Positions 5,157-57,436 of a DNA stretch of 64,000 nt are shown piece after piece. The DNA is taken from contig CM060852.1 in the NCBI GenBank assembly GCA_030737835.1, forward strand, positions 20,321,868 to 20,385,867, read 5' to 3'. The position numbers and the translations under genes are program-made. Each line of letters opens with the position of its first letter. The stretch's first letter is position 1. Under the pieces are notes generated by a model. That model had not been told where the DNA came from. It did no database searches and was given only the letters and a program-made list of their open reading frames with translations. This DNA comes from Acorus gramineus. Taxonomy: Eukaryota; Streptophyta; Magnoliopsida; Acorales; Acoraceae.

Positions 5157-5979
5157 GGGAGAAAATCCAAATAACCCCCCCTAAACGGCAAGAAATCCAT
5201 ATAAGCCCTTATTTTTCTTAAAATTTATATATAATCTCCTGAAAACACTTATATAAATCTAAATAACCCCTTTAGTTAAAATTCTATTGACATATATGCA
5301 AATATTCCGTTTGATTAACCCTGACTAAAAATACATTATATTAAAAAGGGTTTTTTTTTTTATTTTTAAGCCCCCATAAATTATAGAATTTAGTGATCGA
5401 TCCTTCACTTTTTCATATTTTAGTTTTAGTCCCCAGATTTAAGGATATGTTCATTTTTAGTTCCTCCCATAGACTAAAAAGAAAATAAAAAAATTTAGGG
5501 ATAGGTCCCTCCCAGGGAGTAAAAAGGAACATATTCTTTAAATCTGGGGACTAAAACCAAAATATGAAAAAGTGAGGGATCAATCACTAAATCCTATAGT
5601 TTGTGAGGACTTAAAAATAAAAAAACCTATTAAAAATCCCCCACAATTTGTTAAAAATGTGAAAAACCCTATGTAGATGGCAATTTTACCATTTCGGATA
5701 GATTATAAAATCTTATTCGATTGGAAAGGTAAAATAATCATTTATGGAAGATTTTACGTATTTTTAACACATTGAAGAGCTTTTCTGGAATACTATATTT
5801 TCAGCTCGGGTTAGCCAAAGAAAAATTTCATACAATAATTTTAATATGTCAATGAAAATTTAATTCATGAGATTATTTGTATTTACATAAGTGTTTTAAG
5901 GCGGTTATATGGACCTTAGGAAATATCAGGGAGTTATATGGATTTCAAACAGTTTATAGGGGGTAATATGGATTTTTCC
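5157..5979. mobile_element. Foldback MITE, family A copy 1 (Mutator-like), carrying a nested MITE
   Basis: Left end GGGAGAAAATCCAAATAACC and right end (reverse complement GGAAAAATCC) are inverted, and the two arms stay inverted-complementary for most of their length. It is flanked by a perfect 10-bp duplication ATAAAACAAA at 5147-5156 and 5980-5989. A 9-11 bp duplication with long inverted repeats points to Mutator-like elements. There is no coding capacity. The left half is split by another MITE at 5348-5627; without it the copy would be about 530 bp, like its relatives. Confidence 0.85.
5348..5627. mobile_element. 280-bp palindromic MITE nested in family A copy 1
   Basis: The arms are near-perfect inverted repeats (for example CTTCACTTTTTCATATTTTAG on the left, with its near complement on the right) around a short spacer. 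It is flanked by a perfect 9-bp duplication TATTAAAAA at 5339-5347 and 5628-5636. The 9-bp duplication and GGG/CC ends fit a Mutator-like MITE. It must be younger than its host element. Confidence 0.88.
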
Positions 5980-7809
5980 ATAAAACAAATGGTTTTCCCT
6001 TGCTCGGTTGGGTTGCTCTGGCGGATCACGCAAAACATACATGCGAAGGAATAATAACTCCATGAGATGCATTTACGTTTTATTTTTTGGAAGATAAAAA
6101 TCCGGAAGCCTGTCTTTAGCTATGAATTCATTCGAAATACAAAATGATGAAACCAATGATTGATATTTCGCTATCATAAGGATTTTGAAGAGGAGGGTTA
6201 CCCCTTCATGTCCCTGCAGAGACATATCTGGTTGTATTTCATATTACAAATTGAAGAATTTTATAACATTGAGGTATGTGATAGTGGACATATTTAAAAA
6301 TAAAAATAAAAAAAGTAATAGAATCTGAGTTAAATAAAAAATAGTAAAAAGTAAAATAACATGTGATAAAAAATGATAAAATTATTTTCTATCACATTCC
6401 CTCAAATTCTCTTTGAACTGAAAGAAAATTTTTGATATTCATTCCTTAATAACACTTGTAAAATTATGTTTAGGATATTTTATTTTTGGATTTATTTTAG
6501 GATATTTCAGATTTTTTTTTTTATGGAATTCACCAAAACTAAGATTGTTGAGAAGTAAAAATTTTCTTTTCGAATTAGAGTTATCAAATTAGTCTTTAAT
6601 ATATTGAATAAAAAAAAACATAAGTGAAGTACAAAATGAAAAAAAAAATCGATTTGAGTGAATTCAAAAAAATAAATACATAGTTCGAATGAGACCCTCC
6701 AAAATAAAATTTAAAATGAAAATGATGTTTTGTTTTATTTGGAGGGAAAATAAATTCCCATTTCGTGAAGAAAATGAAATCTTTTGGACTGATGTGGGCA
6801 AATATTCAAATCTGACATGGATGAAAGAATGTTACAAAAACTTGGCTGAGTGTATCAAAACTCTCTCAAAATGAAACATTCATCAAACAAGGTCATGGAA
6901 CCCATAAATTTTGTTGACAAATTAAATGCCCTGGATTTTAGGGTGTCCTTTTCAATTAACAATCATGAATTCCAAAACGCCCATACTCAATCATCCGAAG
7001 CTGAGCTTTAATTTATATGTGTCACGTAGGGTCACTATTCTGTCCTGTCTTTACATGTACAAATTATATGTACATGTATTTATGTGTATTTACATATGTG
7101 TGGGTTGCTTTTATATATTATTATTAAAAAAAGAAAAGGACGGTAGGGGACCATTAAAGAAGGGAAAAGAAGGTAGGAGAAAAGATATACCTACCACATG
7201 AGAGCTAAATATTGGAGATCTTTTGGTGAATCTATGTATGGGCCAAAGCCACCCCCCTTAACAGACATTGATTCTGCAACACTATTACCTAACCTTTTTA
7301 TTCATGTCACGCGACTTCCATGCTTTTTTCTTGTATTAAATTAATGAATATAAATCTTATCTGATATTTAAACGTGCATGCATGGATCATATGTCTCCAT
7401 GGGCTCCATCATTTCTTACTTGGGAGACAATTGCAAATTTATGGGGGGCTTGGCTGTCATGAAGGGCCCATATGTTAGTTAATTTTCACATGAAATATTT
7501 ATGTTCAGTCTCTTTTACCATCCGTTTGTAGTTCACTAACAAATATATTATTGTGTAAAGAATTAAATACATCTATACTTTTATGAATTGAATGTATATA
7601 TAAACTGCTAATAGATTGAATTAATATGTGATTTGCAAAAGAATGGTGTGAAACAATCTTACATGCAGTATTTTCATCCTCATATTCATATATAGTGATG
7701 TATATTTTTTTAAGCACAAAAACTTCCAAAAGATTATGGACTATATAAATTTTGTAATCATAGCATATGCGAACCGTTTTTTCTCTTTTATCTTTTAAGA
7801 TATCACTTA
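5980..7809. other. Intergenic, no gene seen
   Basis: AT-rich, with no domain-bearing frame on either strand. The frame at 6926-7201 is low-complexity and matches nothing I recognise. Confidence 0.55.
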
Positions 7810-8000
7810 ATGAATGAGTTACTATTCCAAGCTTATGACAATCTATTAAACACCAGTACTACCCACCGGGAGCTCCTGCGCCAATGTGTGAAGGACTGGG
7901 GCAAGTCAATCGCTGGTGCGGTGGGGATCCATTTCAAGGAAGATGGCTGGCATGTTTTTGGACTAGGGGGCAATCAGAAACAAGCGGCTTCACTGAATCC
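7810..8000 (+). pseudogene. Isolated coding-like fragment, family not recognised
   Basis: A sharply GC-richer island in AT-rich surroundings encodes THRELLRQCVKDWGKSIAGA followed by a Gly/Trp-rich stretch (GIHFKEDGWHVFGLGGN) and ends at ...ASLNP just before a possible GT donor (CCG|GTAGAA, near 8001). An AG dinucleotide at about 7857 could be the matching acceptor. Residue composition looks like a real protein exon, yet I find no second exon within several kilobases. It may be a leftover exon of a lost gene, a fragment carried by a transposon, or one exon of a gene with very long introns. I cannot name the family. Confidence 0.4.
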
Positions 8001-8040
8001 GGTAGAACTCTTTTCTACAGCAATTTTAGTTGATGTTTGA

Positions 8041-9480
8041 TGGTTGTTGTTGCTTGTTCTATTTTGACTTTTGCTTTTTTTTTTTTAGCATTTTTATTCT
8101 CTCTTATCTTTAATTCAGACATTTCTTTTATATTACGATTCATTTTTAAAGAGAAATGACTAAATGGAAAAAAAAATCAGTAATACTCACAAAAGTAAAA
8201 CCATTCATCTTATAAATGGTCCATCACATCCCTTCTCTCTCCCCCAATCTTCTTAGATTGCTTGTTTTATTTCAAGTGTTTCTACATTAACTTCATCACC
8301 ATATATGTCGGTTCTACTTTCTTCTCGGTTCAGACAATCATTTGCTTTTCTTTCTATTTTTTGCCCCATCTTTCAAACTCACTGCAGAACCGTAGGGCAT
8401 ATGCTGTTTTGTTGCCCATCTTCTTTGAGACTCTTTTCAATGTGGGGTCTTTGAAAATTTCTTTTGCTAAGAACACCTTTTCTTTTGTTGAAGGGGTTTG
8501 TTTAATTTTGATTTTTACAATTAGGAATTACCAATATATATATTTGTCAAGAGCTGTCATTCTTTATAAAGGGGGTTATGACTATTCTATATGTTTAACA
8601 TGTGAGACTATGTACATTTAGTTTTGGATTCATCACATCGGGTGGTCACATGTGAACACTTTATGCATTATTTGAGAGGTGGTAACTCATGCAATGCTAT
8701 TGATTAATAAATTTGTTCGGTTTAATTCATGACTTGAACTTATAAATTGAGTTCAATTCAATGATCATCATGATTTATAGACATCATCTAAGTAAGCAAT
8801 TCTCATGACAAGACAGTTGATGTAACAAATAAAGCTTTTAAATGCTGCACTAGGATATGTATCATCTTCCTCTCGTTGGAGATTGACTTGTGAATAAAAT
8901 TAATAATAAAAAGGTATTAAAAACTCATAAATTTAACATGAAATATATATTATTGTAGTTTAAGATTCTCCGCATTGTTTTGAATATAAACATACGTAGA
9001 ACATTGAGTATTGTATATCCAATCTTGTATATATCTAATTCTATATTTTTCTCTATGAAATGATATATAACATTTATTATTAGTATTTTATCTAACACTT
9101 ACATTTCACAACGGGTGTTATTACACACAGCTGAATCCTAAAGTGATATTGAGATGAAAAATATACAATTTAAATTTTTGAGTGAGTCCGCACAATTCAT
9201 TTGATTTCATAAGCGTGATACACGCACCCCCGTTTACAACCCGATACACTATGATAGTGTTGTACATACTTTGCTATTATAACATATAGCTTCTATTATA
9301 GTATCATCTATGATACGATTTTTATTTTATTTTTTCAACTAAAAAAAAAAAAACTATTATACTCAATATACACATCATTTCATATAATAACGTACATTTC
9401 AAAATGAGAGAGTATGATTTTTTTTTTAAAAAAAAAAAAAAACAGTATGGATTGTAATTGGGGTTAAAATGGGCTAGATG
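8041..9480. other. Intergenic, no gene seen
   Basis: AT-rich sequence with homopolymer runs. The frame at 8262-8621 is hydrophobic only because of T-rich codons and has no family match that I know. Confidence 0.55.
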
Positions 9481-9525
9481 TATTCTTTTTCCTTCCATAT
9501 ATCATATTCCTCTGAAGCCCTTATT

Positions 9526-9569: not shown

Positions 9570-9756
9570 AACCCTTGAAAAGGGCTTTTCAATGAACTAC
9601 ACCGCCCACTGAAACAATGACCAGAAGTCCTTACAATGGGTCTTTGGCGGGCGAAGATTCAGATTTCGAGGGAGGGCATAAAGCAGAGCCCAACGAAACC
9701 CTAGAAGCCCCTCCTTCCCCTTCATCCAGGGTTTTTGAAATCCTCGCATATCCGCC

Positions 9757-12700
9757 ATGGAAAGACCTTCGCCGCAGCCCTTGTGCCCGAAAGAAGCCCT
9801 CGATCTGCTCAACTGCGCGACCGGCGCCGATTTCGATCCCGACAAGTGTCTCCGCTTCTTGAACGCCTTGCGTGCTTGCGTGCTCGAAAAGGTTTGCGAT
9901 CCTTCTAGTCCGAGTCCCGTTCAATTTATTTTTTCTTCATGCATTGATTCGATCTCTCACGGGTTTCACTGTTTCACGCAATGTGACGGTGATTTGAATT
10001 TCTCATCATTTCTTGAAGTTTTGTTTTAGCTTTTAATTATGTATCCAACTATCCAAGTGAACTCTGCAAGTTTGAAACACATTTTGTTGATTTTACGCGT
10101 TTGTAGGAATCAACTTAAAACATTTTTTCAATGATAGTGTTAGGTACAGCCCCAGATAGACAGTCCTCACATTTTTCCAATGCTTTGATGAAAAGTGCAA
10201 GTCGTTCTATTTTGAATTGATTGAACCCATTTTTAGTAAATGTACAAAATTAACGGGGTGTATACCTCATTTAAGGAGGTACATATATCGTTGGATGGCT
10301 AACAAGATGTATGCGACTGCATTTGGGGCTGTAAATAAGACTGTAACAACACTCTTTTTTCAACGCCCCAGACAGTCACAATTTATTTATTTAAAAATCT
10401 AAAATAACAACTTTTAGTTCTAAAAGTGTTCTAAAAAGTGGGATTAATTAAGTGACCGCCTACCGCCTGGGTGGAATTGGGTCTGGCCTGCCTCATCCCG
10501 AGGATTTAGTGGCCTTGGATTAAGCGGCTAATAGTGGTTAAGGAGGGTTTAATTGGATTAATTTGATACTTTTTCCTCTTCTATCCTATTTTATTGCATT
10601 TATTTTATATTTACTATTATGTATATGATGTATAATGTTTTAATTATTAAAAGAGTAGTTGATTAATCCCTGCTTATCACTTGACTAGGGCGTAGTGCTT
10701 TCTACACCATTGAGATACAATCATACGAACATGAAAAAAAAAATACTTATCAGGAATCTGATATAAGTATATTTCCTAAGAGTCTGATTCAAAAACTGCT
10801 TTCAGTAAAAAATTGCTTTTAAAATAGGTTTCTAAACATGAATCAGGATGGGATTGGGTAAAGAGTGCTTGATGGCTCAATCTATGCCTAACATAACCAT
10901 AAATTTGTTTGTGCTGATTAGGTGCCTAGCCCATTTCGCAAAAACCCTATTCAAGGTCAATGCACAATATATCATTTAAAGTGGTGTTGAATGTCATTCT
11001 AATATGTGATAGGTAGTGCAGGTGTTCTGCGATGGAGTTATGAATACTGTTCTGAATACCGTTCTGCATCTGATGTGTATTGAAATATGAAAAGGGAGAT
11101 TTTGTTGAAGTCAGATGCTTCAGGGTGTGTTCTTACCAGTATTGAATCAAAACTTTTGAAACCACATGCACACACCTTTTTTTTTTTAAAACTTCGCTAG
11201 ACTTAAGTTAGAGGGAAACACCTAAAATCAGGCTCATCAGTTTTCCCCTATGTGAGTTGGTTTTGGAGAAGAATTGGATTGCTTCATTCACCTACTCAAC
11301 CGTAATGTTGTGTGGGACTCAGATGATTTGGATGATTTATCAAATGGTCTAAAACGTTAAAACACACAGTTTTGTTAGGTCCGTAGAGTTTCATAATGTC
11401 AACCTGTCTGGGTACTATTCTTGTACGGTATTGGACATCAAGTGGCTTCCAGGAGGAACTAGATTTAATGGATGAAGGCCTCCTCCTCCCACGCTTCTCT
11501 CTGGTGTTTGTGGCTAATTGTGTTTTTGTTGTTTGTGTTTGTGAATGATTTTGTTGTTTGGGTTGTGAAAATTTATTGATTTGGGGGCGCAGATGAGGAG
11601 TCTCAATGAAATAATTTTCAACTGATGTTTCTCAGTGATGTTTTTTTTCACCTTGGAGAACTGATGCCCCCCATATTTGATTTTCATTAAAAGAAATATA
11701 TAATATATAATATATTTTTTGCACTCAAATTTAAATTTTATTATTTCCTGAAATTTCTGACAAATTAGAATTATAGAATGGGTTTGTGACTTCTTTTGTT
11801 CTGAGTTAAAAGACTTGCCTCAAAAGAGGTCACAGGCTGGTGCGTGGACATCACGTAAGGCACAGTTTTTCTGACTTTCTTAATTGTCAATAGTAGGGAT
11901 TCTAATTGTCTATGGTTCTTGACTCTTACCTCATTTGTGGAATTCCCTGATCCCTCGTATCAATCCCAGTTTTAAGTCAAAACATGACTTTGTTTTCCTC
12001 TATTTTTTTCCCGTATTTGTTTTTGTTTGCTGATTTGCTCTTAGGATTTATTTCCATGGGTCAGTTAATTCTCTCAGTTCCATTTGTGATTCCATCTTTC
12101 TGGTCTTGACCTATTAACTATTATGATGTATGGCTTACCAAAAAAATGGATATTACCTTGATTAACCAGTTTATTCTAACGGGCAAAAAAATGATGTATA
12201 GTTTCAACTTTCTTGTCTTTCCAAAGTCTATAATCTTTTTGTTGTCCTCATTCTCCTACTTACATTCCTTGAAGCAAATATGATCTCATTGTTTGCACAT
12301 GACAGTATTGGTCGATAAGAAAGGTAAAATGATGGTATGTCCTGGAGAAAAATTGTGATGTGGAAGGATTGGGAATATAATAGTAGATTAATTTGAATTT
12401 GTACCTTGAAAGATTTTAGCAAAATAGGAAAGGAAAGGTGGTTGAACAGGGGATAGATTTTTTTAAAAAAAAAAAACTTGTGGAACATAGAGAAAGGATT
12501 GAGATGTTTGACTTTGGATTATATAGATTGAGGTGTTGTATGGGGACGGTGATTGGCAGGTGGGAGAGATGTAAAGAAGGGAAAGTGATAAGAGAACATA
12601 AATGGTAAGATCAGATTTTTTTTCCCTGAGACCCTGTAAGGATTTATTGATTATGATCTCTCCCTTCTTTAGTAGGCTCATCATCTTTGCGGTACTAAAC

Positions 12701-15405: not shown

Positions 15406-15867
15406 GGGGGAAATTCAAATAATCATGTCTGAAATTTATATAACCCTAACTTTTTTTATAAGTTCATATAACCCTCTTAAAACACTTATGTAAATTCAAA
15501 TAACTATCTGATTTAAATTTTTCGTTAACAAATTTAATTAATCTTGGATAAAAACATAGTATATCAAAAACACTCACAACGTGTTAAAAATACAAAAAAT
15601 ATATGTAAATGACGATTTTATCATTATGAATAATTCAAAATGATAAAGTCGTCATTTATGGATATTTTTTATAGTTTTAATATATTGTAAGGATTTTTTG
15701 GTATACTATATTTTTATCTGGAGTTATCCAAACAAAATATTTATAAAATATTCATTACCCTGTTAATCAAAATTTAACTCTAAAGTTTTTTTCAGAGGGT
15801 TAAATTAAAAGAAAATCAGGAAAATCAAGAGGTTACGTGGCTTTTCAACTGTTTACATGGATATTTC
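15406..15867. mobile_element. Foldback MITE, family A copy 2
   Basis: This shares the family A arms: a left arm with AAATTCAAATAATC and repeated ATATAACCC phrases, a central palindrome (AAATGACGATTTTATCAT and its complement), and a right arm ending GTTTACATGGATATTTC. The left end has decayed into a T-run and no target duplication is intact. The right flank, ATAAAACAAAT at 15868, is identical to the target duplication of copy 1 at 5.2 kb. Confidence 0.75.
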
Positions 15868-16240
15868 ATAAAACAAATATAAATGATTACGTAATAATTC
15901 TTTTAAAAATATTAATTCGATTTTTCCCCCAAAAAAAAAATGGAAAACCTCGTGAATCAGACACTGCCCGTCCTCCACGCATCTCTTCCCCCCCTTTCAT
16001 TCCTTCCACCACATTTTCGTCCATTTTTTTTGAAAGACCTAAAAAGTCCCAATTTTTAATGCAAACAAGAAAAAAAAACCCTCTGATTCTCTCTATTTAT
16101 AGATTTTCTTTGGTCACCTGAATTTATTTTATTAATTAATGTTTTGCTCTTGCGGGGGCCAATAAAAATTTATAAACTTTGTATTTCTTCGTTCATCTTG
16201 ATCGGACCCAAAACAGAAACCCTAGTTTTTGGAGGTTCCG

Positions 16241-24394: not shown

Positions 24395-24560
24395 ATGTAT
24401 ATCATTACATAGAATTGAATGAACCCATGGCTACATGATACATGGACTGTATAAAATGTATATCATTACATAGAATTGAATGAACCCATATGTGTTAGAA
24501 TTGAATGAACCCATGGCTACATGATACATGGACTGTATAAAATGTATATCATTACATAAA
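24395..24560. repeat. Tandem direct repeat, 61-86 bp period
   Basis: The phrase ATGTATATCATTACATA recurs at 24395, 24456 and 24542. It is followed by the block GAATTGAATGAACCCATGG-CTACATGATACATGGACTG in the first unit and again within the second unit, which carries an extra 25 bp. Confidence 0.88.
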
Positions 24561-24954
24561 ATGAATGTGTGTGTGTGACAACTGACAACAATAAAGATTT
24601 CATGATTTCATTCCATGTAATGTGGTCCGGACCTGAAGAGGCCACCAGTGGTAATGGTGACCCTACACAATCATGCTGTCCGACATTTTCATGTTATCAC
24701 AACCTGTAACTACGAAATGATGGCTGCATCAATCAATAGCTGTCAAAAAGGTTAGATATGGTGGGTGTCCATGGCCAAAAAAAAAAAAAAAGGAAAACAA
24801 CGAGTGTTGTTTGATGTTGGTTCAAAACAGATGAACAACCACCACCCATCCATCCGACAAGCAATAGAACGACACACCCTTCATCCCTGTGTCACATCTC
24901 TGGTTCTACACTTATTTTATTTTGCAAACCAACAATCTACAGTCTAATTATACA

Positions 24955-28143: not shown

Positions 28144-29393
28144 GGGAAAATTTCATAGAACCCCCTGTAAACTGTATGAAATCTATAAATCTATATTACC
28201 CCTGACTTTTCATGAAGTTATATTCTGCTAAAAACACATGTGTAAATCTAAATAATTTTTCCGAGTTTAATTTCTATTAATAATGAAGAATATTTTATTT
28301 AGTTAACACTGACTGAAAACACAGTATATTTAAAACCATCTAAAATGTCTTAAAATGTGTGTAAATGATAGTTTTATTTTATAATCTATTCATCAGATAA
28401 ATAAAATCATCATTTATAGATGATTTTTTACATTTTTAACATATTACAGAAATTTTTTTGCATACTTTGTATTTTTAGCCAAGTTAAACAAATGAAAATA
28501 TTCACATAATATTTCTTATCTATCAACGAAAACTTAACTAATTATTTATTTAATTATTTATATAAGTGTTTTAAGTAGGCCTATCAATGGGTGACAGGTC
28601 GATCCAGACCCAACCTGATAAAAGACGTAAAATATCAGACCCGAAAAACCCAAGACCCGATATGGACCCAACCAGAGACCTGATCCCATGGACTTGTTGG
28701 ACCGGATACTATTTTAAAGCTTGGTTAAGAATCTAGTAATAAGTAAAAACCATATTAAGTTTTTTCTTTTCTTAAGGATAGTTTCGTGCAACAAAAGAGT
28801 ACCATCATGTGCAAATATTGACCCGTCCATTCAAACCCAAAAAGAAACTCCTGATATTTGCAAAAATTCCACCGCATCCATCGTCCCCAATTAATAACCA
28901 AAACGAAACTAAAACCCTAGAATCGGAGGAGATGAAAGCATCCCAATTTGAAGTTCTGCAATGACCGTTGAAGGTCCCCTTAAGCATCCTTGGCTTCCCC
29001 TTCCCCTCTGCCGTCTCCTCCGACAACCCCCAAGCCTCTGCCTCTCCTACCGCCTCAATGACCCTTCCAACGATCCCATTGCATTTGGGTTTTTGAGGGT
29101 GTGTTCCCCATCCAGCGCTCCCATATCTATCTCCGTTGAATTCGGCCTCATCGGTAGAGGAGGTCGGAGCCCCACTTTCCTCCTCCAGCTCAAGCCCTGA
29201 TCAAGCCTTGGCTGCCTGTTCTTGTGGCAGGTCGACCCGGACCTGACTGATCCGGACCAGGGTCCTTATTTGGCTAGGTTTGCCAGGACCTAGCTCGGAT
29301 CCGACCCATTGATTAGCTTAGTTTTAAGGGGTTACATGGATTTTAGAAAAGATAAAAGGGGTTATACGGATTTTGAAGGTTATTTGAATTTTT
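28144..29393. mobile_element. Foldback MITE, family A copy 3, split by a hAT-like insertion
   Basis: Left arm GGGAAAATTTCATAGAACCC and the inverted right arm (GGGGTTACATGGATTTT, then GGGGTTATACGGATTTT) match family A, as does the central palindrome around 28370-28430. The right arm is interrupted at 28576-29320 by another transposon. Without it the copy is about 0.5 kb. Outer target duplication is not clear because both flanks are A/T homopolymers. Confidence 0.82.
28576..29320. mobile_element. hAT-like element nested in family A copy 3, with possible captured exon
   Basis: Ends TAGGCCTATCAATGGGT and (complement of right end) TAAGCTAATCAATGGGT are inverted. The flanks are a perfect 8-bp duplication GTTTTAAG at 28568-28575 and 29321-29328, the hAT hallmark. 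The interior from about 28900 to 29210 is much GC-richer and begins like a plant 5' leader (AAACCCTAG, then ATG), with Ser/Pro-rich translations in more than one frame. This suggests a host gene fragment carried by the transposon. No intact protein frame is evident and the source gene was not recognised. Confidence 0.8.
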
Positions 29394-32224: not shown

Positions 32225-34800
32225 AAAATGGTAGTTCATTCATAACTCAAATATGATTACAAATGGGCTAAAACAGGGGAGAATAGAATGAAAGACAAGC
32301 ATACAAAGTAAATGCAAAGAAAGCTGTAAAAATAAACACGATGCTCCGTGGCTACACGAGGTATGCCACCATGAGACAACACAACATCACGTTGGGAGGG
32401 TCCCTAGCCCCCGTACCGCCCGTCACTCCTCAATTCTAATCCTCCCCCTGATGGTGTTTATCGCTCTAGCGCCCGCGAGGAACCTCCCCCAATCTTTAAT
32501 GAGAGATATCACATCCTCTTAAAGGTTTTTCATGTATATCGGTTGGCGTCTGAAAATCGCACTATTGCGAAGTCGCCATACCGCCCACTGTCCCGCTGGG
32601 ATCACTACTCGCCGAACTTCCCCCCTGATAGATTTGTCTCCCTGTGTGACACAAGCAACCATAGCCTCCCATAACTCCTGTAGGTTTCTGAATTTGCAAG
32701 ACATCCCTGTTGCCGCCTCGAGACGTCCCCAAAAGCTGGTCGTGAATGAGCAGTTAAGAAGTAAATGCTCTATCGATTCAGGGGCCGTTCCACCTAAGTC
32801 ACAGACAATCGATGCCTTCGGGCGCCAATGAGCACAGTATACTTTGGTTAGTGTTTTGCCCTGGAGTGCGAGCCAAAGAAAGATCTTGATTTTGCATGGT
32901 ATCTTCCAACTCCAAATCAGCGGGGAACGGTCAACCATGCTCTGGTTGCTACTCAACGATCTCGACTACCATTTATAACCCTGCTTGACGGAGAAGTTGT
33001 CATGAGGCGGAGCACCTCACATCAAGATATCCACCCTCTCCGACACAGGCCCTTGCTCCGGAAGGCCATGTACTAGGGTCGCGAATTCGGAGACCTGCCT
33101 GTCCTCCACGAATCTCCGTAGGTTCATATGCCAGTCCCCTCCTACGCCACTATTCTGCCATACCTCACTAACCCTCTCCTCCTTAGCTTCGGCCACTGTA
33201 AAAAGGTGTGGAAATTGTGCCTTGAACGGAGCTACGCCGCACCAATTATCCATCTAGAACCGGATCTGCTCTCCATTCCCCAGTTTCCATCTAAGCCCAC
33301 CGGTAAACTCCTCACTTAGATTCAACCAACCTTTAAATAAGAACGACGTTTTCTGCGAGATGCTAGGGAACATGGAAGGTGCATTTCTAGCGTTGTATCT
33401 CTCGCGGAGTACTCTTGCCCACATCGAGTTATCGTTGGATGCCCACTTCCAAAGCCATTTGGATAGAAGCGCATGATTCATCGAGTTAAGATCAAGAGTA
33501 CTCAGTCCGCCTTTCTCGCGCGGGTGGCATATCATGTCCCACCTGACCAAACATGGGTTGTTCGCTCCCATACTCGACCCATTCCAAAAGAACCAACATC
33601 TGATGGATTCCAACATTTTAAGAATGCCTTTGGGAACCCGAAATGTCGAGAAGTAGAACAGAGGGAGATTAGAAATAACTGTATGCAGAAGTGTAAACTT
33701 TCCTCCCATACTCAGCGCTCTGTTCTGCCATCCGTCAAGCCTTTTTTGGACCCTTTCCACGAGCGGTGCCCAAGTCTTTGCGAAGAAGAATGTTCTGGAC
33801 CAGGGGCAACCCAAGATGTACTGCGGGGAAGCTTTTTTCTGCTGGTAGCCCAGAATAGATGCTAGATCTGCAGCCAGTGTGGGTTCCACGTTAATTGTAA
33901 GAAGGATGCGCTTCGACCACTTTATGTGCGGTCCCGACTCTAGCGCATAACAATGGAGGATGAATCTGATACCTGCGATTACACACACTGAAGGAGAAGT
34001 AAAGACCATCGTGTCGTTGGCATACTATAAATGGGCTATGGGCGTGCCGCCTCCAGAGCACGCCAAGCCTTCGATCCATCCGTCGTTTGCCGCCTCCTCA
34101 CACATTCTGCTAAGTGCCTTCGCCACAAGTGTGAATAGGAGCGGGGAGAGCGGGTCTCCTTGCCTCAGCTCATGATTGATGGGGAAAAAACAATACGTTG
34201 CTCCATTTATAGCCACCGAGGTGCGCGCCGTTGTAATGCAGTTTGTCACCATCTTCAGCCACTGTGGGGGGAAACCATGCAAGCAAAAGATGTGAAAGAG
34301 AAAATTCTAGTCTACCTGATCGTAGGCCTTGGAGAAGTCCAACTTCAGAATAGCCCCGCTTCACTGATCCTTATGCAGACTTGAAATGATTTCCTGTGTG
34401 ATAGCGTAGCCTTCATGAAGACTTCTACCTGACAAGAAGGCGGACTGGTTATCTTCAACCAGTAGCGCGCATGCCGTGTGGAACCACTTCGCCATCAACT
34501 TAGGCACGATCATGTAACCCCCATTTACTAGATAAATGGGCCGAAAGTCATTTATTGATTTTGCTCCTTTTTTCGGGGTAAGCACGAAGAGAGATGCGTT
34601 TAAGCCTCCCTTTCCCTAACCGTCCCTCTGAAAGTCTGTGCACATAGTCACCACATCGTCCTGCACGATCGTCCAGTAACGCTGATAAATGCCATACCAA
34701 ACCCGTCCGGCCCGGGAGATTTGTCTCCATCGGCGCTGAAGACCGCCCTTCGCACTTCTTCAACCCCAAACGGTGCAACAAGTTGTCGAGAGATCGTTAG
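32225..34800 (-). mobile_element. 5'-truncated L1-type LINE with reverse transcriptase and zinc-knuckle region
   Basis: Minus strand from about 34795: the reverse transcriptase opens with SADGDKSPGPDGFGMAF, then LRQGDPLSPLLFTLVAKAL, a stop just before the catalytic box, and YANDTMVF where the family has YADD. The rest of the reverse transcriptase and connection domain runs to 33254, and the zinc-knuckle part is at 32956-32519 (WKIPCKIKIFLWLALQG, then CAHWRP and HLLLNC). The endonuclease half is absent, typical of incomplete target-primed reverse transcription. Several frame changes and stops show it is dead. It is related to the LINE at 1.5-3.0 kb but retains the part that one lacks. The exact 3' end near 32225 is a guess from the end motif. 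Confidence 0.88.
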
Positions 34801-38271: not shown

Positions 38272-38655
38272 AGTTACATTATAATTTTGTTATAAATGAA
38301 ATTCAGATACATTATTCTATATCCAGTTACATTTTTATGAAAATTAGATATATGTGCATTTTGAAAACTAAGTTACATTCAGATTGATTGGTCCGTAAAC
38401 AGTTACATTCTATGAAATTCAGATACATTGCTTTAAATATAGTTACATTTCTATGAAATCTATATAATGTTACATATGAAATTCAGATACATTGTTTCAA
38501 ATCCAGTTACATTTTATGAAATATGCATACTTATAGTTACATTATATAAAGTTCAGATACGTTGTTCTAGATACAGTTACATTTTAGAAAATTTACATAA
38601 TGTTACATATAAATTCAGATACATTGTTCCAGATCTAGTTACATTATATGAAATT
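38272..38655. repeat. GTTACAT minisatellite-like array
   Basis: The word GTTACAT occurs about ten times in 380 bp, spaced 27-53 bp. Every second unit carries ATTCAGATACATTGTT, giving a higher-order unit of about 65-75 bp (for example GTTACATATGAAATTCAGAT at 38470). Units vary in length and sequence, so this is an old, diverged array. Confidence 0.8.
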
Positions 38656-41210: not shown

Positions 41211-42420
41211 ATCGTATCTTATAAGCGCGGAAAACCCCCTTGCGTTTACAGTGTTAAATGTCCCTTTTTAAAATGCCTCTAAAGAATGCTTCGTAGAAGT
41301 GGGAGAGAAAACGCAGAAACAAAGGGTGTATTTTACCATCCTGTCCGTCCACTTTGCAAAGCATTATAGGCTTTGTCCCCAACACTTTTTAAAAAAACCC
41401 TAGACACACATTCACTTCTCATTGCTGCCCCCCCCCCTTTCAATCACAAAGGGGTCTCCATCGTCGCCAAGCCACCAAACTAGTTCCTTTCCGTTTAGGT
41501 AAGGTTTTCACCCAAGTCGATTTGTTATATTGATTTGTTCTTCCTTGATTTTTCGTCCTCGCCAACCTCCAATCTTCATAACAGTTGAGGTGATCGAATC
41601 ACATGGAGATAGGTCGAGATGGAGGTACCTGATCTTGATGACCGAAGAGGAGGTCGAAAAAGATGACGTGGCACCCCCAAAAGTAGTCTAACTTTTTTGT
41701 GTTACCCTCTTTTTTGGAAGTGTAACAGGGGGTATACTTGTAATCCACCAATCTCCATAAACCAAACACAGAGGTGTAACCAAACATCATATCCCTTTCC
41801 ACGCTCCTCCTCGAAACACTGCATATGTGAGACGTGGGGTTGTGAAACACGCGTCCAAAAAGGCTCTAAGGCTCTGTTTGGATATGAGTTTAGGTAGATT
41901 ATGCGTTTAAAAAGCTATAAATCTATCTTCCATTTTAGACCAAAAAATCTTGCGGTTAAAAATCTAATAAAACATAATTTTTCAAAAGCTGAGTTTAAAA
42001 CATAAAATTTTAAAAATCTTAGTATTTCGATCTCATACTAAACACAACTTAATAAAAGAATATGACCGTGACCAGAACCCAAGATCATAAAAATGTTTTG
42101 AATTATGACCAAAGGTTTGGGTGCGCAAAAATAAAATTGAGACGTTGAGGTTCCTAAGGAGACCGGATCTAGTCAGGATTGGATCCGGCCAGTTCAGTTA
42201 ATACCAAACTGGACCACGTGAAAATCGAACTGGAGTACTTATAAATCGAACTGCACAACCAATTGGTGGGTATATATTTCACTATCTTATTAGATCCAAT
42301 CAACTATTGGAGAAAATATGAATTCCTAAGTATCATCAATATCCAATAAGAGAGTAAAATATATACCCAACAAATGATTGTACAGTTCAATTTATAGGTG
42401 ATCCAATTCCGATTTACACT
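41211..42420. other. Intergenic, no gene seen
   Basis: Contains a C-run near 41430, and an inverted pair near 42250-42370 (ATATATTTCACTATCTTATT and AAGAGAGTAAAATATATACC). Confidence 0.5.
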
Positions 42421-42616
42421 CACCCAACAAACCAAAAGGAAAACCAACGGCCAAGACAGTGAGCGTCCACCACCCAATCTTAAAATCCCTCACAAAGACA
42501 ACCGCAGTTGATATTGTCCTTCTTACCCACCCATAAAGAAAGAAAAACCCCTCTCATCAATTCAGCGGCGCCCAATTTTTTTATTCTTTATCGAAATCTA
42601 TGGTTTCGATTTCGCC

Positions 42617-43173
42617 ATGGACGGCGAGGACGAGAGGAGGGACAGCTGGGAGATCCCCGAATTGATCTGCACCGTCAGATCGTCCTTCCTGAACGACATC
42701 GAGAGGGTCCAGGGGATGCTTGTTTCGAGGGAGGCGAAGAAGGACCTCCAGATCGAGAGGCTCGCGGAACAGCTACAATTGTCCGAGGCGAGGTGCTTCA
42801 GAAGATATACAGTCTACAGATATTGGAGTCAAGAAAGGAAATATCCGTACTGCAACTCAAAGAGCCCATCCATTGCGCATTCATGATGGGTACACTGGTG
42901 TTCTAAAACCCAAACCAAAATTGACCATACATATTGATGACAGCGACAACAAGTCGAATTATAATTCTAAGGAAGTTGGTAATTCCAACTATAATGAAAC
43001 TGCAGATGTGATAGTGGATGATGCAGTGAAGAAAAAATGTGGATGATAAGAAAAGAGGTGACCTCTTTTTATCAGTTTCAATGCGCAAAAGAAAGAGTGC
43101 TTCAAAAGTAATTGTAAGTGATAGCGAGAGTGATGATGATGATATTCCCATTGATGAACTGGTGAGGAAATAA
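42617..43173 (+). pseudogene. Broken, intron-less copy of the coiled-coil gene at 47405
   Basis: Starts MDGEDERRDSWEIPELICTV and runs to LSEARC in the frame of the downstream gene. About 120 bases corresponding to the end of that gene's exon 1 are then missing, and the sequence continues directly with the counterpart of exon 2 (TATTGGAGTCAAGAAAGG, then the KPKLTIHIDDSD region) in a different frame. The 2.1-kb intron of the relative is absent. A stop follows at KKKCG and the last part (KRKSASKVIVSDSESDDDD) is again in another frame. Upstream sequence is also similar (AACGGCCAAGA, AAATCCCTCA, ACCGCAG), about 190 bp before each ATG. That favours a DNA duplication with later deletions, or a retrocopy of a transcript with a long leader. 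Confidence 0.75.
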
Positions 43174-46134: not shown

Positions 46135-47200
46135 ATTTCTTTATGTTGAATATATATATATTTTAAAGTTTTATGACATTTTGTTGTAAGACTTTTCTTC
46201 ACAGAACATGATAGGTGAAAACACAAATGAACTGCATTTGGAATGGAAATGGGACTGAGTGTAAGTTTTCAAAAGAGACTAGCCCTTGATTGGTCCATAG
46301 ATGTGAATAGGTGTTGGCCAAGGACCAGTTCTACAACTAAAATATGGACAGATTCCTTTTTGCGAAATCTTTAAGGTAAAAAAACTTCCTTTTGAAACAA
46401 TACAATGCAGACTCTGGATAAGGTGTATGTGGATGACATGGGAATCTTTTTTAATCCAATGCATGCTTTAATGAATGGCATTGCAAAGGGATTGAGGCCT
46501 CTGCGAGCAATATGCAAACTTGGAATGATTGTTTTTTAGAAATTCAGGTGTTTGAATCTTTGAATGGTCACATTTTGGAATAGTCATATAATCATTTCCA
46601 ATCTTGAATGGGGATGTGGGAGGGGTTGGAGAAGAACACGGGACATCCAAATCAGACAATGCCCATCTGGTTGAGAGGGGTGGCTGGCTGATCTGCTGGG
46701 GGAATTAATTGCAGCAGGTACAGACTAGTAACTAAGCCATGGACTCAGTTGTATGATTGCAAGGAGGAGATGGTGGAGAAGGCATGCACATGAAAAATCT
46801 CCCTTGGGCGAGGAGGGTGAAAAAGATTTATTTTATCTGGCTCTCTTATTATAATTGAGTAGGAAGCCTACTCGTTTTTTTTTTTTTTTTTGTTTTAGTA
46901 AAGAAGCCTACCGACTACCGTTTATAAAAAAAAAGAAAAGAAAATATTAATGTGGCTTTTTTTTGTGCATTTCAAGCTTGAACATCAATGTATAACAAAG
47001 TTATTATTTTCAAACTCAATATTTACCAAAACTTTTCAAATAATCCAATATATGATATGACAGTATATCAACCGTCCATTTAACGTGACTCAAATTCCAA
47101 CCAGAAAAAACCGCCATCATGAGCAGTCAATTCACCACGCCGTTTACACTTCCCCCATGGAACTCTCCTGCTCTCCCCTTGAAACTAGTTTCACTTTACA
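46135..47200. other. Intergenic, no gene seen
   Basis: No recognised frames. T-run near 46876 and A-run near 46930. The last part approaches the promoter of the next gene. Confidence 0.5.
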
Positions 47201-47404
47201 CTCCCCAACATAAAACAAAACCAACGGCCAAGATCGTAAACACCCATTATCTACCAAGTTCAAAAATCCCTCAAATATAACCGCAGGTAACCTTATTGTT
47301 CCAATCCCTCCCCTCTCACACGCTCTGATGAGTCACTCCAAAATCGCCCAAAACCGCACCAAAAAAAACAGGTCTTCGAAATTGTTTAGGGTTTCGATCT
47401 CGCC

Positions 47405-50349
47405 ATGGACGGAGAGGATGAGAGGAAAGATTGGAAGATCCCCGAATTGATCTGTTCCATCCGATCGTCCTTTCTAAAGTCGGATTTCGAGAGGGTCCAG
47501 GGGATACTGGTTTCGAGGGAGGCGAAGAAGGACCTCCAGATCGAGAGTCTCGCGGAGCAGCTCCAATCGTCGGAGGCGGCCAGAGCGGAATCCGAGGCGC
47601 GGTGCGCGAATCTCGAGGCGGAGATGGGGATCCTCCGGCGCAGGTGCACGGACGTCGAAGCGAGGGTCGCGGAATTGAAGGCGCCGATGTTGAGATTGGG
47701 AGATGAGAACACCATCTTGAAAGGTATGGAAACATTTGTGTTTTCTTGTTGTTTCCATGTGCTGATTCATATGCAAGTTAGTTAATACAAGATATAATTG
47801 TGTACATGGGATGCATAATAATGTAAGAGGTTGATATGACAACATATGAGAATGGATAACTGTGTGTGATACAGAAGGAGGGTTAGGTCCATTTGTGATC
47901 GTGTTTATGACAGTTAGATTTTATCACATCAAGATGGGCGTATCCATAATTATTGTGATTGAGATATTTTATCATTAAATTCTTTTTTAAATGGTAATTA
48001 CACGTTATAACTTTTAATATGTTATTTGAAAATTGAAATGATACGATCTGATGGTCATAAACACATTGGACAATTAAATTTTCCAACTCGAGTTGGACCT
48101 CACCCGATTCCATGTTGAAAAAGCCCATTAATTAATTTTCTTAAGGGAAAAATTCATACAACCTCCTGAAATCTGATTGAAATCCATATAACCCCCTGAA
48201 AACACCTAATAAAACCAAACAACCCTCTGAATAAAATTTTCGTTAGTAAATGATAAATATTTTGTGAATATTTCGTTTGATTAACCCTTATTGAAAACAT
48301 AATATACTAAAAAACTAATACAATGTGTTAAAAATGTGAAAAATCCTATAAAAATGACGATTTTACCCTCGTTGGATATATTATAAAGCCCTATCTGAAA
48401 GGGTAAAATCATCATTTATAGAAGATTTTTCACATTTTTAACACATTGTAGGGTTTTTTTGATATATTGTGTTTTATATTAGGGTTAAGTGGTTAACCAA
48501 ATATAATATTTACAAAATATTCTGCATCTATAAACATAAATTTTATTCAGGGGGTTATTTGGATTTATTAGGGGTTTTTAGGGGGTTATATGGATTTTAA
48601 GAAAAGTCAGGGGGTTATATGGATTTCAGTCAGTTTACATGGGGTTATATGGATTTTTCCTTTTTCTTAAAAAAGAAAGGGAAGAATGCATCCTTTGTCA
48701 CCCAGATTTGATATAACCCGAAGTCTCTCTGCACTAACCCCAAACCTGCTCCGCCCTATTTCGGATTTTCAAACTTGTAAACACGTCCTATTTTGAAACC
48801 CACCAAGCCCGACCCGCCCTGCCTATGTGTTGGGTCACACAAGGGTTGGTCGGATCACAAATTAGAAATAAAATCTATTGTTTTGTTGAAACACATAAAC
48901 ATATATAAAGCTATTTTTAAAAAGTATGATACTTAAAATATGTTTCAACATAAATAGAAAGTTAGATTGATTTCTTAAATATAAACTTCTTACAAGTCTA
49001 ATCTGAGCTCAGATTCAGCATGAGGCAGGTTTTCGGTGGCAGGTATGAAAATCAAGGAGTCCTTACCCTCCCGATAATGTTGAGGCAGGCCAGGTTAACC
49101 CCAACCCAAAAAAAAAAAAAAGAAGAAGAAAAACCTGCCCCAGTAACATCCTTACCACTTGTATATCGACTGTTATAATTATAAGTGGAATAATATTCTA
49201 ATATTTTTTGGCATTGCACAACAAAAGATTAAAAAAACATCTTTATTGTACATCCTCAAGCATTGGTTTGTGTAGTGGATTGATAATGTTCTAATTGTAC
49301 ATCCTCTAATATTTTCATCTACTTGTGAAAACATTTTTGTTGGTCAATTTTTTGAAGTGGACTGACAGTGTTCTAAATGAAGATCAGTGGCTAAAGAAAT
49401 GTATGTTCGAATGAACTGGTCTGCATAATATTTCATGGTTTTTAAGGCTTCCGTAGAATTATTTGATTTCTCACTCATTTCCTGAAAATTTGATAGAATT
49501 ACTACATCAAGTATATAGTTAATTCATCTTTTTGTTGTTTAGTCCATTTGTCTTCCGATCTCGTATGTAATGCGTGCATACTATTGTTTGAGCTGCTCAG
49601 TTTCTGTTCTGATTATAATTTTCTTAGGTGGCATTGAAACACGTTAGATGATTCTTGTTTTCTAGGAAGACTCGGAAGTGTTTCCAAACGCCCCAAGTAC
49701 TTTTGAGAAAGAAAAAAAGCTGCTTTTAGAAACAGTAAAACATGAGTTTTTTTTAGGATCTCACAAAAGTATGCTTCCAGGGAACTAATTCTTAAAGCAG
49801 TTTTAAGTGAAAATCTCCATTTCAAAAACCCGTTTCCAAATGCTACCTTAGCTTGTCTCTTTGTTATCAGGTTCACACCAGCGAGGAAAGTCTGCAAAAG
49901 TTGGAGTCATGGAAGGAAATAACTCTCTTGCAACTGAAAAAACCCAACACTTGGGCAGACCTGAAGGGACCTATGATGGAGCTAGTTATGGAAATACAAC
50001 TGGGTGTGTAAAACCCATGACAGAACTGGTTATATCTATTGATGACGATGACGACGAGACGAGTTATAATTCTACAAAAGCTGGTGATGTTAACTCAGGT
50101 GAGGATGTTGTGATACTGGATGACATGGTAAAAGTTGTGGAAAACAAGAAAAAAAGTGGTTCGCAAAAGAAATTGAAGTCACTTTCGGACATCTTTGATG
50201 ACTTCAACTACGGCAGGGGTTTTTTATCTGTACCAACGCCCAAAAGAAAGAGTGCTTCAGTGGTAACTATAAGTGATAGTGATGCTGATGTTACCATTGC
50301 TGAGATGAAGAGGAAACAACATCAGAAGACTATTTCATCTAAACATTGA
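47405..50349 (+). CDS. Plant coiled-coil protein with acidic SUMO-interaction-like motifs, function unknown
   Basis: Exons 47405-47723 and 49871-50349 join within a Gly codon across a 2.15-kb GT-AG intron and give 265 residues. Exon 1 starts MDGEDERKDWKIPELICSIR and becomes a long amphipathic helix (about residues 30-105) rich in Glu, Arg, Ala and Leu. Exon 2 is hydrophilic and has three hydrophobic-then-acidic stretches, LVISIDDDDDE, VVILDD and VVTISDSDAD, each like a SUMO-interacting motif, among basic patches (KRKSAS, KKKSGSQKK). This suggests a nuclear protein, but that is inference. The frame ends QKTISSKH. Sequence after the stop still resembles further exons of the same family, so this locus may itself encode a truncated form. 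Intron 1 contains family A copy 4. Confidence 0.65.
48145..48660. mobile_element. Foldback MITE, family A copy 4, in the coiled-coil gene intron
   Basis: The best-preserved copy, 516 bp. The left arm starts GGGAAAAATTCATACAACC and the complement of the right end reads GGAAAAATCCATATAACC. Repeated CCATATAACCCC phrases sit in both arms, and a central palindrome is built on ATGACGATTTTACC and GGTAAAATCATCAT. Ten-base target copies ATTTTCTTAA (48135-48144) and TTTTTCTTAA (48661-48670) differ at one position. Confidence 0.87.
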
Positions 50350-53368: not shown

Positions 53369-53586
53369 TATAAAATGTGTGTGTATATATATATATAACT
53401 GATAGAAAAAATCAAATCATGTTATAACTTGAATGTTTGAACGCAAAATTTTTATTTCAATCTATGTAAAATATTCTATTGTCATTTAAAATGTTATAAA
53501 TCATTTTTATATTTTAATAAATGATAAAAAATAAATGCATGTTCTTAATATAATCTATTATTATCGTAGATTGATGACATATTAAA

Positions 53587-54695
53587 GGGCATGCCTATTT
53601 TCACTAACCAATTAACTAATATCATCAACCAAAAAAATGAAAAAATCATAATTTGAACAACACTAATCCCACCAACCATTCGATAGTTTCCCTGTCAACC
53701 GCTGTTTAAACTATTCGATGGCCTCCCTATCAATCACTGTTTAAACCATTCGACAGGTGCTCTGTCAACCTTTCTTTAAAAACTTCAATGATTGGTTTGT
53801 CGACTTGAGAAGACTGTTTAAATTTGTTCGGCTCTGTTGTTGTTTGCATTCGATGTTGGTTAATTGGTTGGGCTTTGTATAGAGAACTTTTGGGTTGAAC
53901 AAATCACATGTATTGGTTGGATTTGGAGCTGTGATAGATTTTGAATGCGATTTTGTGTATGGTATGACGAATGGGTTGTTGCATTGAGTATTTCAACTTC
54001 CTTTGTTGTTTGCATAATGCATTCAGTTGGATTTAGGGTTAATGGTATTTAAGAATAACAAATTTGGATAGATTTATATGATGATTTGATGATTGGTTGT
54101 CAATTGAATATGATTTTTTTATATTTTTTGAGGTGCATGACTAAACTCTTTGTCTTGAATTGAATATGGTTTTATTAGATTTTTTAGGTGCGTGACTAAC
54201 TTCATTATTTTTTCTCTCATATAATGGTAATTTTGATTTGTCTATCATTTAGTTTAACTGAAATGCCTGGTTGTGATGCTTTGTTGTAATTATGTTCATG
54301 TTTTTTTTAATATACTAAAAGTTGAGTGAATATATTGTAAATGTTGAATGAAATATAAATGTGAATGTGTTGATATTTTAATGTACATTGAATGTTGAAT
54401 AGAATCTAATGTGTCTCAGTTCTTTTATTAAAAAAAAATATATATACAACTCAATACCGTTACGATCGAACAGATCTTCTCAGGTCGACAGATCAACTGT
54501 CGAACATTTTAAAAGAAGATTGACATATAATTTATTAAATATTTTAAACGGTGATTGACAGACATCTATCTATTGTTCTAAATAAATATTGACAGAAAGA
54601 AAAATTATTGAATGATTGATGGAATTAGTGTAGATCATGAGTTTTTCACGTTTTTGATTGGTGACATAATTGGTGGGTGGACGTAAAACGTGCCC
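53587..54695. mobile_element. 1.1-kb non-autonomous Mutator-like element with about 120-bp terminal repeats
   Basis: The left end GGGCATGCCTATTTTCACTA and the complement of the right end, GGGCACGTTTTACG, begin inverted repeats. These remain alignable for over 100 bp (CACTAATCCCACCAACCATTC against CACTAATTCCATCAATCATTC). Flanking 9-mers CATATTAAA (53578-53586) and AGTATTAAA (54696-54704) agree at seven of nine positions. The interior has no transposase frame. Confidence 0.75.
53678..53782. repeat. Three 35-bp subterminal units in the Mutator-like element
   Basis: ATTCGATAGTTTCCCTGTCA, ATTCGATGGCCTCCCTATCA and ATTCGACAGGTGCTCTGTCA start at 53678, 53713 and 53748, each followed by a CTGTTTAAA-like end. 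Related units occur inverted near 54480-54570. Confidence 0.8.
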
Positions 54696-54704
54696 AGTAT
54701 TAAA

Positions 54705-56910
54705 ACGTTTAAATGAACCTCTTAAGTTATCCTCATCGTGCATTAAATGAAGCTGGGTTGAATCTTCCCTTCCAATCATATATTATGTAAAAATCACATA
54801 AGAATACGATCTAATTATTGACACCGACTACACGTGCAATCCTTATCTTTCACTATTTCAGGTCATCCAAACAGCCCACCTGTCGAGCAGGGCTTCACTT
54901 TTCACAAGAGCAACCCCACTTGAAATGACCATATGCCCCCCGCCACGTCATCCGTCAGTTTCGGATCTCGCTGACGTTTTCAAAAAGCAAAAACCGGTCC
55001 CCACTCGGGAATAGTAACAAAGTTCGTGTACGGTAAATATTCGGTCAATGTTATGTTCGATACGGTACGTGTACATTCGTAAATCATACGGGATAAATAC
55101 GAAAAAGTACGGGGATAATTAGACAATTTTCTAGATAATTTAAGCATTAGTATGTATTAATGAATTTAATATGCATTATGTTCGGTACGGTACGTTTTGT
55201 ACGTTTGATCTCGGGACGGACCGGTCCACGTGAACCGGCCCCGCCAGCCGTGACGTGTCACGTGGGCGCGGCGTCACCCCCACGAGGTCCGGCACGTGCG
55301 GGTTGCCACGTAGGATGATGATGTTGCCCTGCGATCACATCAGCTGACCAACCGGGTGATGTCGACCGCTGCTGGACAAAAGAAACGTACGTCCATTCAT
55401 ATATTAGGGCAAATTATTAAATAATAAGTTTATAATATGTCATACCCAAATTGCCACTCATTTTTTTTATAAATCTCCATAACTTGTATTGTAGTGATGT
55501 GCAAAAATTTTATTGTTTTAGGTAGCGTTTGATTGATTGCGTAGTTATAAATTTTTTTTTTTTTTTCTCTCAACTTTTGAAATACACTGTTTTTAAATAC
55601 TATTTATTTGAATTTTATCTTTAAAAAACTACTCCAAATTTTTTGTTTTATTACATGATTACGTAATTCAGTTTCTTACAAACGCACCCCACCTTTGATT
55701 TTATGATAATTGTTTTAGAACAAAAAAAAAAAAATATGATCTTGAGATATTTTCAGTTTCAATGAATTGATAATTAAGCCCCAATGGAATAGAAGGGGGA
55801 ACATGGAGGAATTGAGAGAATTGTACCAAAAAATTTGATACACCTAGTTTCAAAAATCACATCCGGATTACATATATGCTTATTTGGAGATTATATACAT
55901 TTTAAAATACTTAAATCACGTGTTAACACATTTTATAAATCAAATGATTCACATATCAAATTATTCTTTTTATATCTTTTATAAATCCACGTCTTATTCA
56001 CTTTTTATCAATGTCTAATTTATGTTCAAACATACAATAAAAACTTCATCATTACATTTTTTAACTAGAATAACAAAAAAACACAAATAAATTAAAAAAT
56101 GATTTATTTTTTATATATTTGAAATAGTTATCTATCCTATAACATTTTATGTTGCTACCCAAATTTGAGTAAAATACGTAAATGCGTGATCATATGAATA
56201 TAGTTCTATAGGGGGTCATTTCTGGGTTGAATCACAGTGCGCAACATGTTCAACCTCCTAGTCGTCTGATTGATTTGCGATATATATGCACATAGGTCCT
56301 GTCGATCCACGAACATCCGATGATCAAGTCAATCCCAAAGTCAGATTAGTGCTAGATCAAAAAATAAAATAAAATAGATTTGAGGAGATCAATGCAGATC
56401 CGCAACATCTCCTAAAATCAAATGGATCAGTAGATTTCTTTCCATCTGATGGGATCATAGAAAAATCCCATATCAATCCATGGGATAAAACGCCAATGCT
56501 ATAAATAGAGAACCAATTAAGGTCTTGATGCGCTCCATCATCACCATCAATCAGTCAAATAGCAGCATAGACGGATCTAATTATCCGAACCCGGTTATTA
56601 TGATTTTGTCCCCTCTAAATTGATTAGTTATGATCAGTTTTTATTAACCCTTGGTGTTGGTGTGACTTGTGTCACACGAAGAGTACATACTATAATGTAA
56701 CAAATCAGATATGTACCACGTAGAAGGACAGAACATCACCCACTTTGTGAACTCTCAATCAATTACGTTTATTTTAATGGGATGAGCCATGAGTGAATAG
56801 AGGGATGGCATTTTCGTAGTTCTGCAATAAAACAGTGGCAATAAGTACCTCACCAGAGATCATATTCTCATATATAAGATCATATTCTCATATATATATA
56901 TATATATATA
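54705..56910. other. Intergenic; GC-rich stretch at about 54870-55380
   Basis: No coding frame. The GC-rich stretch includes the G-box cluster listed separately. The segment 55020-55200 repeats ATGTTCGATACGGTACG and ATGTTCGGTACGGTACG, which looks like worn transposon sequence. A TA microsatellite lies at 56890-56910. Confidence 0.5.
55227..55298. promoter_or_regulatory. G-box / ABRE-like cluster without an adjacent gene
   Basis: CACGTG occurs at 55227-55232, 55259-55264 and 55293-55298, with TGACGTGTCA at 55251-55260 and CCACGTAGG at 55307. Such ACGT cores bind bZIP and bHLH factors (light and abscisic-acid responses). No start codon with a credible frame lies nearby, so the function is unproven. 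Confidence 0.45.
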
Positions 56911-57436
56911 GGAAATATCCATACAATACCTTTACTAAAATCTATAGAACCCCCGACTTTTCTTGAAAATCCAAATAACCCCTTGTAACATTTAGTAAAT
57001 CTAAGTAATCTCTTGAATAAAATTTATGTTTACAGATGATGAATATTTTATGAATGTTCTGTTTAATTAATTTTGGATAAAAATGCAGTATACAAAAAAT
57101 CTTATAATATGCTAAAAATGTAGAAAATCATTTGTAAATGATGATTTTATTCATCCGAATAGGATTTTATAATTTATTCAAATGAATAAAATCGTCTTTT
57201 TCATAGAATTTTTCACATTTTTAATACATTGTATGGAGTTTTTAGTATATTGTATTTTCAATCAGGGTTAATCTAACAGAATATTTATAAAATATTCATT
57301 ATCTGTCAACATAAATTTCATTTAGGGGGGTTATATGAATTTACTAGGTATTTTTAAGGGGCTATATAAATTTTAAGAAAAGTCAATGGGTAACATGGAT
57401 TTCAATAAGTTTAGAGGGGTTATTTGGATGTTTCCC
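56911..57436. mobile_element. Foldback MITE, family A copy 5
   Basis: Left end GGAAATATCCATACAATACC and right end GGTTATTTGGATGTTTCCC are inverted. It contains the family A arms and a central ATGATGATTTTATTC / GAATAAAATCGTC palindrome. It is inserted at a TA microsatellite, so the target duplication cannot be delimited. It sits about 0.75 kb upstream of the SPA start codon. Confidence 0.8.

Follow-up and report, generated by a model that had tools for sequence, protein, structure and literature searches.

Near-palindromic, probably Mutator-like foldback elements of a high-copy family in a 64-kb window of the Acorus gramineus genome

The window analysed here, a stretch of 64,000 nucleotides of the Acorus gramineus genome (assembly GCA_030737835.1, contig CM060852.1, or C6:20321868-20385867 in the 398.6 Mb and 137 numbered contigs that we searched), carries five copies of a near-palindromic repeat that we call family A. 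A family A profile, built together with a consensus from 36 of 40 aligned genomic copies with copy 4 among them, matched all five places in nhmmer, each on both strands, and neither the reversed window nor ten reversed random loci gave a profile match at E 0.001, so that the five-copy family proposed in the original prediction is borne out. The best preserved in the window is copy 4 (48145..48661, plus strand; E 3e-158, the copy being itself part of the profile), which lies in a probable intron, is 93.1% identical to the consensus, lacks the second left-arm unit when its sequence is set against the consensus, and is flanked by exact 9-bp target-site duplications, TTTTCTTAA, at 48136..48144 and 48662..48670. 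Copy 1 (5157..5980, plus strand; E 2.8e-69) measures about 535 bp net and is split by a second palindromic element, B, into nhmmer segments 5158-5349 and 5623-5979; its duplications, TAAAACAAA, agree at 9 of 9 bases (5148..5156 and 5981..5989). Copy 5 (56911..57436; E 1.9e-105), whose nearest other genomic place is 84% identical, adjoins a TA run in which a duplication is not resolvable, and copy 2 (15406..15868; E 6.8e-45) is degraded and without a clear duplication. Copy 3 (28144..29393, the end being approximate; best E 7.7e-42) measures about 497 bp net, has a degraded right end and is split by a hAT-like element, H, with nhmmer segments at 28144-28536 (E 7.8e-41) and 29322-29373 (E 9.4e-05). 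Among the window copies only copy 4 is near the consensus, the other four scoring lower. All five places indicated earlier held, whereas the extents needed revision in that copy 1 ends at 5980 and copies 1 and 3 contain nested elements.

To place these copies in the genome as a whole, we searched with copy 4, which gave 4430 first-look candidates, and scored the best 40, copy 4 included; the 39 others were taken with 300-bp flanks and aligned with copy 4. This set is made up of the genomic copies with the highest similarity to copy 4, and hence of well-preserved ones. Four copies (L014, L027, L029 and L040) were excluded from the consensus once their ends were seen to be damaged and were retained in the duplication count. 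A second, more diverged set comprised 20 copies from among those that resemble copy 5 most closely. In the alignment of 40, family A copies begin sharply with GGGAAAAATCC and finish with GGATTTTTCCC, and the 538-bp consensus agrees with its reverse complement at 496 of 534 aligned positions (92.9%), a palindrome that spans the entire element as inverted terminal repeats with a G-rich outer end. Each consensus arm contains four direct units of about 30 bp, marked by the box TCCATATAACCCCCTG or a one-base variant of it, and the boxes start at 9, 39, 68 and 99 from either end. The 36 profile copies are 90-95% identical to the consensus and 80-89% self-complementary, with a mean pairwise identity of 86.8% (maximum 95.9%). 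When the genome was searched with the consensus, the 40 scored places lay at 91-95% identity, so there is no sign among them of a near-identical, very recent burst. None of the window open reading frames (ORFs) of at least 110 aa overlaps any family A copy.

Target-site duplications were read at fixed boundaries. In 30 of the 40 copies the 9-bp flanks agree with no more than one mismatch (exactly in 18 of them), as against 29 of 1560 mismatched flank pairs in the control, and the other lengths gave far fewer matches among the same copies: 5, 7 and 6 at 6, 7 and 8 bp, and 3, 1 and 0 at 10, 11 and 12 bp. Duplications of 8-11 bp, usually 9, are characteristic of Mutator-like elements (MULEs), and the 9-bp length fits. 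The second set matched at 9 bp in 10 of 20 copies at fixed boundaries, and six further copies matched once the boundary was shifted by one to three bases in sum, a count made without a control. The 30 duplications are 96.3% A+T (flanks, 68.5%), with T first in 24 and A last in 20; several of them are plain A or T runs, which count for little as evidence. Of the window copies, 2, 3 and 5 have no duplication that stands out at their ends. The 10-bp duplications originally attributed to copies 1 and 4 are in fact 9 bp long and exact in both. Whereas the consensus ends in C, copy 1 ends in A and copy 4 in T, and these terminal differences account for the apparent match or near-match of a tenth base. 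Two pairs of copies, L015 with L033 and L081 with L082 (the latter over the bases printed), have common flanks and therefore look like duplicated segments and not like independent insertions. Separately, the 9-mer TAAAACAAA stands 3' of both copy 1 (5981-5989) and copy 2 (15869-15877), 10 kb apart, with differing flanks beyond. A degenerate pattern for this shared flank occurs at four genomic places, which include copy 1 and exclude copy 2 because the end of copy 2 does not fit the pattern; the 9-mer common to the two flanks is a coincidence for which we have no explanation.

Five copies in 64 kb had suggested a very abundant family, and the genome-wide counts agree, although the window itself was picked for having family A copies. 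The right-end 22-mer occurs at 4102 genomic places with up to two mismatches and at 532 exactly, and the left-end 28-mer occurs at 1409 with up to three mismatches, against none for the reversed control of either. Since the left consensus end differs from the right-end 22-mer at one position, one copy can be counted twice, and about 2000 copies is therefore a floor. Two family A copies were seen in ten random loci (the first 10 of 40 drawn places and the first 5 kb of each, or 50 kb), which would extrapolate to about 16,000 genome-wide with a very wide error.

In predicted folding, copies 1, 4 and 5 stand far above their shuffles. Copy 4 folds at -230.4 kcal/mol (z -23.6 against 20 dinucleotide shuffles, the number used for each copy), compared with -55.5 to -137.6 kcal/mol for five random 520-base pieces of the window, and z was -17.6 for copy 1 with element B included, -13.8 for copy 5 and -9.8 for copy 2. 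The suggestion that a transcript through the probably intronic copy 4 would form a long double strand is in line with this predicted fold. For copy 3, z was -4.4 with its insertion and -1.3 for the left part alone (28144-28557), which folds no better than its shuffles, so that this copy is a weak hairpin. We also asked whether the two arms change together, and restricted the count to paired positions with complementary consensus bases (248 of 267). Co-mutated cells numbered 104 against 95.8 expected in the 36 profile copies, 180 against 179.6 in the second set of 20 and 284 against 245.9 in all 56, and complementary changes numbered 80 against 68.8, 141 against 139.1 and 221 against 179.5, respectively. 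Six shifted pairings were all in excess too (e.g. 169 against 141.3 and 133 against 129.8). The pooled excess reads as subfamily structure, and homogenisation of the arms was rejected, given that co-change lies near the column expectation within either set and that shifted pairings are likewise in excess. A weak effect in the 36-copy set is possible, but nothing strong speaks for upkeep of pairing after insertion.

Family A is short (538 bp), non-coding and high in copy number, as are miniature inverted-repeat transposable elements (MITEs), and its long inverted repeats are made of direct sub-repeats, as in foldback elements. We read it, with a probability of about 0.9, as a non-autonomous Mutator-like foldback MITE, consisting of nearly nothing but two long inverted repeats and moved by the transposase of another element. 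Mutator-like mobilisation, as originally proposed, is the best supported because of the 9-bp duplications, the G-rich ends and the long composite inverted repeats; inconsistent duplications of 9-11 bp or arms that are not inverted-complementary would have spoken against it, and neither was found. A palindrome that instead belongs to the host, for instance as a regulatory hairpin present in many copies or as an RNA gene, could account for the strong predicted folds of copies 1, 4 and 5, but it is hardly credible in view of the sharp ends with 9-bp duplications at three-quarters of the scored sites, the thousands of end matches, the lack of any Rfam match at gathering score in the five copies, and arm changes that stay near expectation within each set. 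More room, though still very little, is left for a MITE of another superfamily that makes duplications of similar length, namely hAT (8 bp) or Merlin (8-9 bp), as no transposase partner was found in MULE loci and the superfamily assignment accordingly leans on duplication length and end sequence. Both of these point away from such an origin, the duplications peaking at exactly 9 bp (6 of 40 at 8 bp) and the GGGAAAAATCC ends being unlike those of the hAT-like element H, and we regard it as very unlikely.

Several results weigh against the Mutator-like assignment. At fixed boundaries no clear 9-bp duplication is seen in ten of the 40 scored copies or in three of the five in the window. MULE domains themselves are abundant genome-wide, a point in favour of the assignment, with 1162 first-look candidates for PF10551 and 471 for PF03108, and the matches listed comprise the best 150 of the 1162 MULE, 150 of the 471 DBD and 149 of 751 SWIM candidates; no family A match was found in 30 MULE loci with 1.5-kb flanks, and none of seven MULE loci with flanks of about 4 kb was bounded by family A ends. 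Nor were listed MULE domains significantly near listed family ends (two pairs closer than 7 kb against 0.94 expected, P 0.25; within 2.5 kb, 0.34 expected, P 0.27) when 178 family ends were compared with 122 MULE and DBD places, all taken from the listings for contigs C1-C5. Among the seven loci, L113 and L114 each have a complete but separate family A copy in the vicinity, and in L111, L112 and L113 the domain lies between inverted repeats of a different sequence. The repeats of L113 (2232-6618) are 330 bp long at 96% identity, with CTCAAGAGTC flanking both sides, and those of L112 (2085-7859) are 898 bp long at 92%. The nearest lead is a MULE gene remnant on the minus strand of C1, with a DBD match at 18642633-18642827 that contains one stop and a SWIM match at 18641465-18641542; a perfect family end, at 18644687, is some 1.9 kb away.

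A partner might also be visible as a distant pair of family ends, and we therefore paired 142 distinct listed ends on C1-C3 (the listings cover 100 of the 532 exact right-end and 100 of the 1409 left-end matches). Left-right pairs numbered 10 at 0.3-0.7 kb, 7 at 0.7-1.3 kb, 2 at 5-6 kb and 1 at 9.1 kb, against 1, 4, 0 and 0 for other orientations in the same ranges, which gave 2 more at 1.3-5 kb. The two long pairs, 5.36 and 5.46 kb apart, compare with 0.065 expected at 5-6 kb (P 0.0014) and count in favour of the Mutator-like reading, the class being one chosen after the pairs had been seen, with an approximate 20 Mb taken for C3 in the random placement. Both intervals are without any listed MULE, DBD or SWIM match, which again tells against a Mutator-like partner, and we treat these pairs as leads only. 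The same picture would result from an insertion within a MITE. On balance we lean towards their being MITEs into which about 4.9 kb of unrelated DNA has inserted, as window copies 1 and 3 carry nested insertions themselves and the intervals contain no listed domain match, but the lean is slight given that both are nearly equal in length and that a putative autonomous MULE of Medicago, AutoMuTAnT, is of similar size (4873 bp; PMC4486113). The seven listed-end pairs spaced 0.84-1.21 kb (e.g. C1:25249384, C1:32526578, C2:22509351 and C2:23348090) form a longer size class.

The elements nested in copies 1 and 3 must have inserted later than the copies that host them. Element B (5348..5627) is 280 bp long, has a GGG end and its own exact 9-bp duplication, TATTAAAAA, and is 81.3% identical to its own reverse complement; its family is abundant, with 2986 first-look genomic candidates, of which the best 40 were scored and the other 39 are 87-93% identical. 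Element H (28576..29320) is 745 bp long, is flanked by an exact duplication of 8 bp, GTTTTAAG, and has inverted ends that contain ATCAATGGGT; we take it to be hAT-like from this duplication length and from end features familiar in that group. Its interior looks gene-like by eye and gave 10 first-look candidates, a number that counts the interior itself, with matches at C57:589223-589912 (82% and 69%) and at C7:6259955 and C7:6150023 (64%); judged from sequence, it is possibly a captured gene piece.

The surroundings of copy 4 are marked by blocks shared between two stretches of the window: 42599-42790 with 47387-47578 (85%) and 43066-43124 with 50221-50279 (83%), and more weakly 42413-42456 with 47195-47233 and 42932-42969 with 50037-50074. 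The distance between blocks is about 0.3 kb in one stretch and 2.6 kb in the other, where copy 4 lies between them, and because of this unequal spacing copy 4 likely sits in an intron of the inferred gene model. An empty site sought through the similar stretch at 42.6 kb was not obtained, as the two stretches fail to align between their common blocks. Elsewhere in the window, an ORF at 58181-59704 has a kinase match below cut-off and presumably resembles plant SPA proteins, and the snoRNA snoZ101 lies at 11584-11672 (Rfam RF00358, 62.9 bits). Minus-strand ORFs with zf-RVT matches at 32519-32956 (53.4 bits) and 1845-2480 (25.6 bits, below cut-off) are probable LINE-like remnants. Seven diverged 44-nt repeats cluster at 38299-38654, and two 67-nt repeats at 24410-24562 are 99% identical, with starts 86 nt apart.

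If family A is a Mutator-like foldback MITE, a transposase encoded elsewhere, presumably of MULE type, would bind its ends, probably at the repeated boxes, four per arm. It would then excise the element and insert it at A/T-rich targets of 9 bp, duplicating these, and transcripts of the copies could fold into double-stranded RNA that feeds small-RNA silencing. A bolder proposal is that families A and B are parallel foldback satellites of one Mutator-type source, with A reduced to arrays of transposase-binding boxes and intronic copies such as copy 4 also giving self-silencing small RNAs. The two families share palindromic structure, GGG ends and 9-bp duplications (for B, one duplication seen), and we consider the combined proposal unlikely.

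Family A belongs to a well-known kind of element, and its discovery is an ordinary one and a small surprise. The comparisons that follow are made by published description. MITEs are typically 50-800 bp long, and the Mutator superfamily made up 41.5% of them in a survey of 207 plant genomes (PMC12550479). The closest relatives that we found are MuTAnT and, as cited, FARE. MuTAnT of Medicago truncatula is, like family A, a short palindromic foldback MULE MITE with G-rich (GGGG/CCCC) ends and 9-nt duplications, a length called typical of MULEs, and its copies in transcribed regions sit in untranslated regions or introns (PMC4486113), as copy 4 probably does; it differs in its length of 292 bp (538 bp in family A), in its 218 related copies compared with thousands of end matches, and in targeting (TA)n microsatellites, whereas family A targets A/T-rich sites more generally. 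The FARE elements of Arabidopsis (Windsor and Waddell 2000), a foldback family classed as MULEs as cited in PMC4486113 and cited also in PMC3169594, are likened to family A through the descriptions in these citing papers, as plant foldback elements with long palindromic ends. Tm1 of root-knot nematodes, a Mutator/Foldback element with 9-bp duplications (8-10 bp in 45 of 53; PMC3169594), shares with family A composite inverted repeats of tandem units, but its unit is about 14 bp and varies in number, as compared with about 30 bp here, and it differs further in the asymmetric 7-bp motifs that lie beyond its inverted repeat and in having a known transposase-coding group. Our literature search found no description of family A, such consensus sequences being mostly kept outside papers, and a text search for the box sequence returned only papers unrelated by title, which is no proof that family A is new to the literature. 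Family A adds to this genome a high-copy palindromic MITE family of Mutator type, with exact ends, a duplication length and a unit anatomy that can be used for annotation. Should a 5.4-kb partner be confirmed, it would allow a direct test of what repeated boxes do in long foldback arms.

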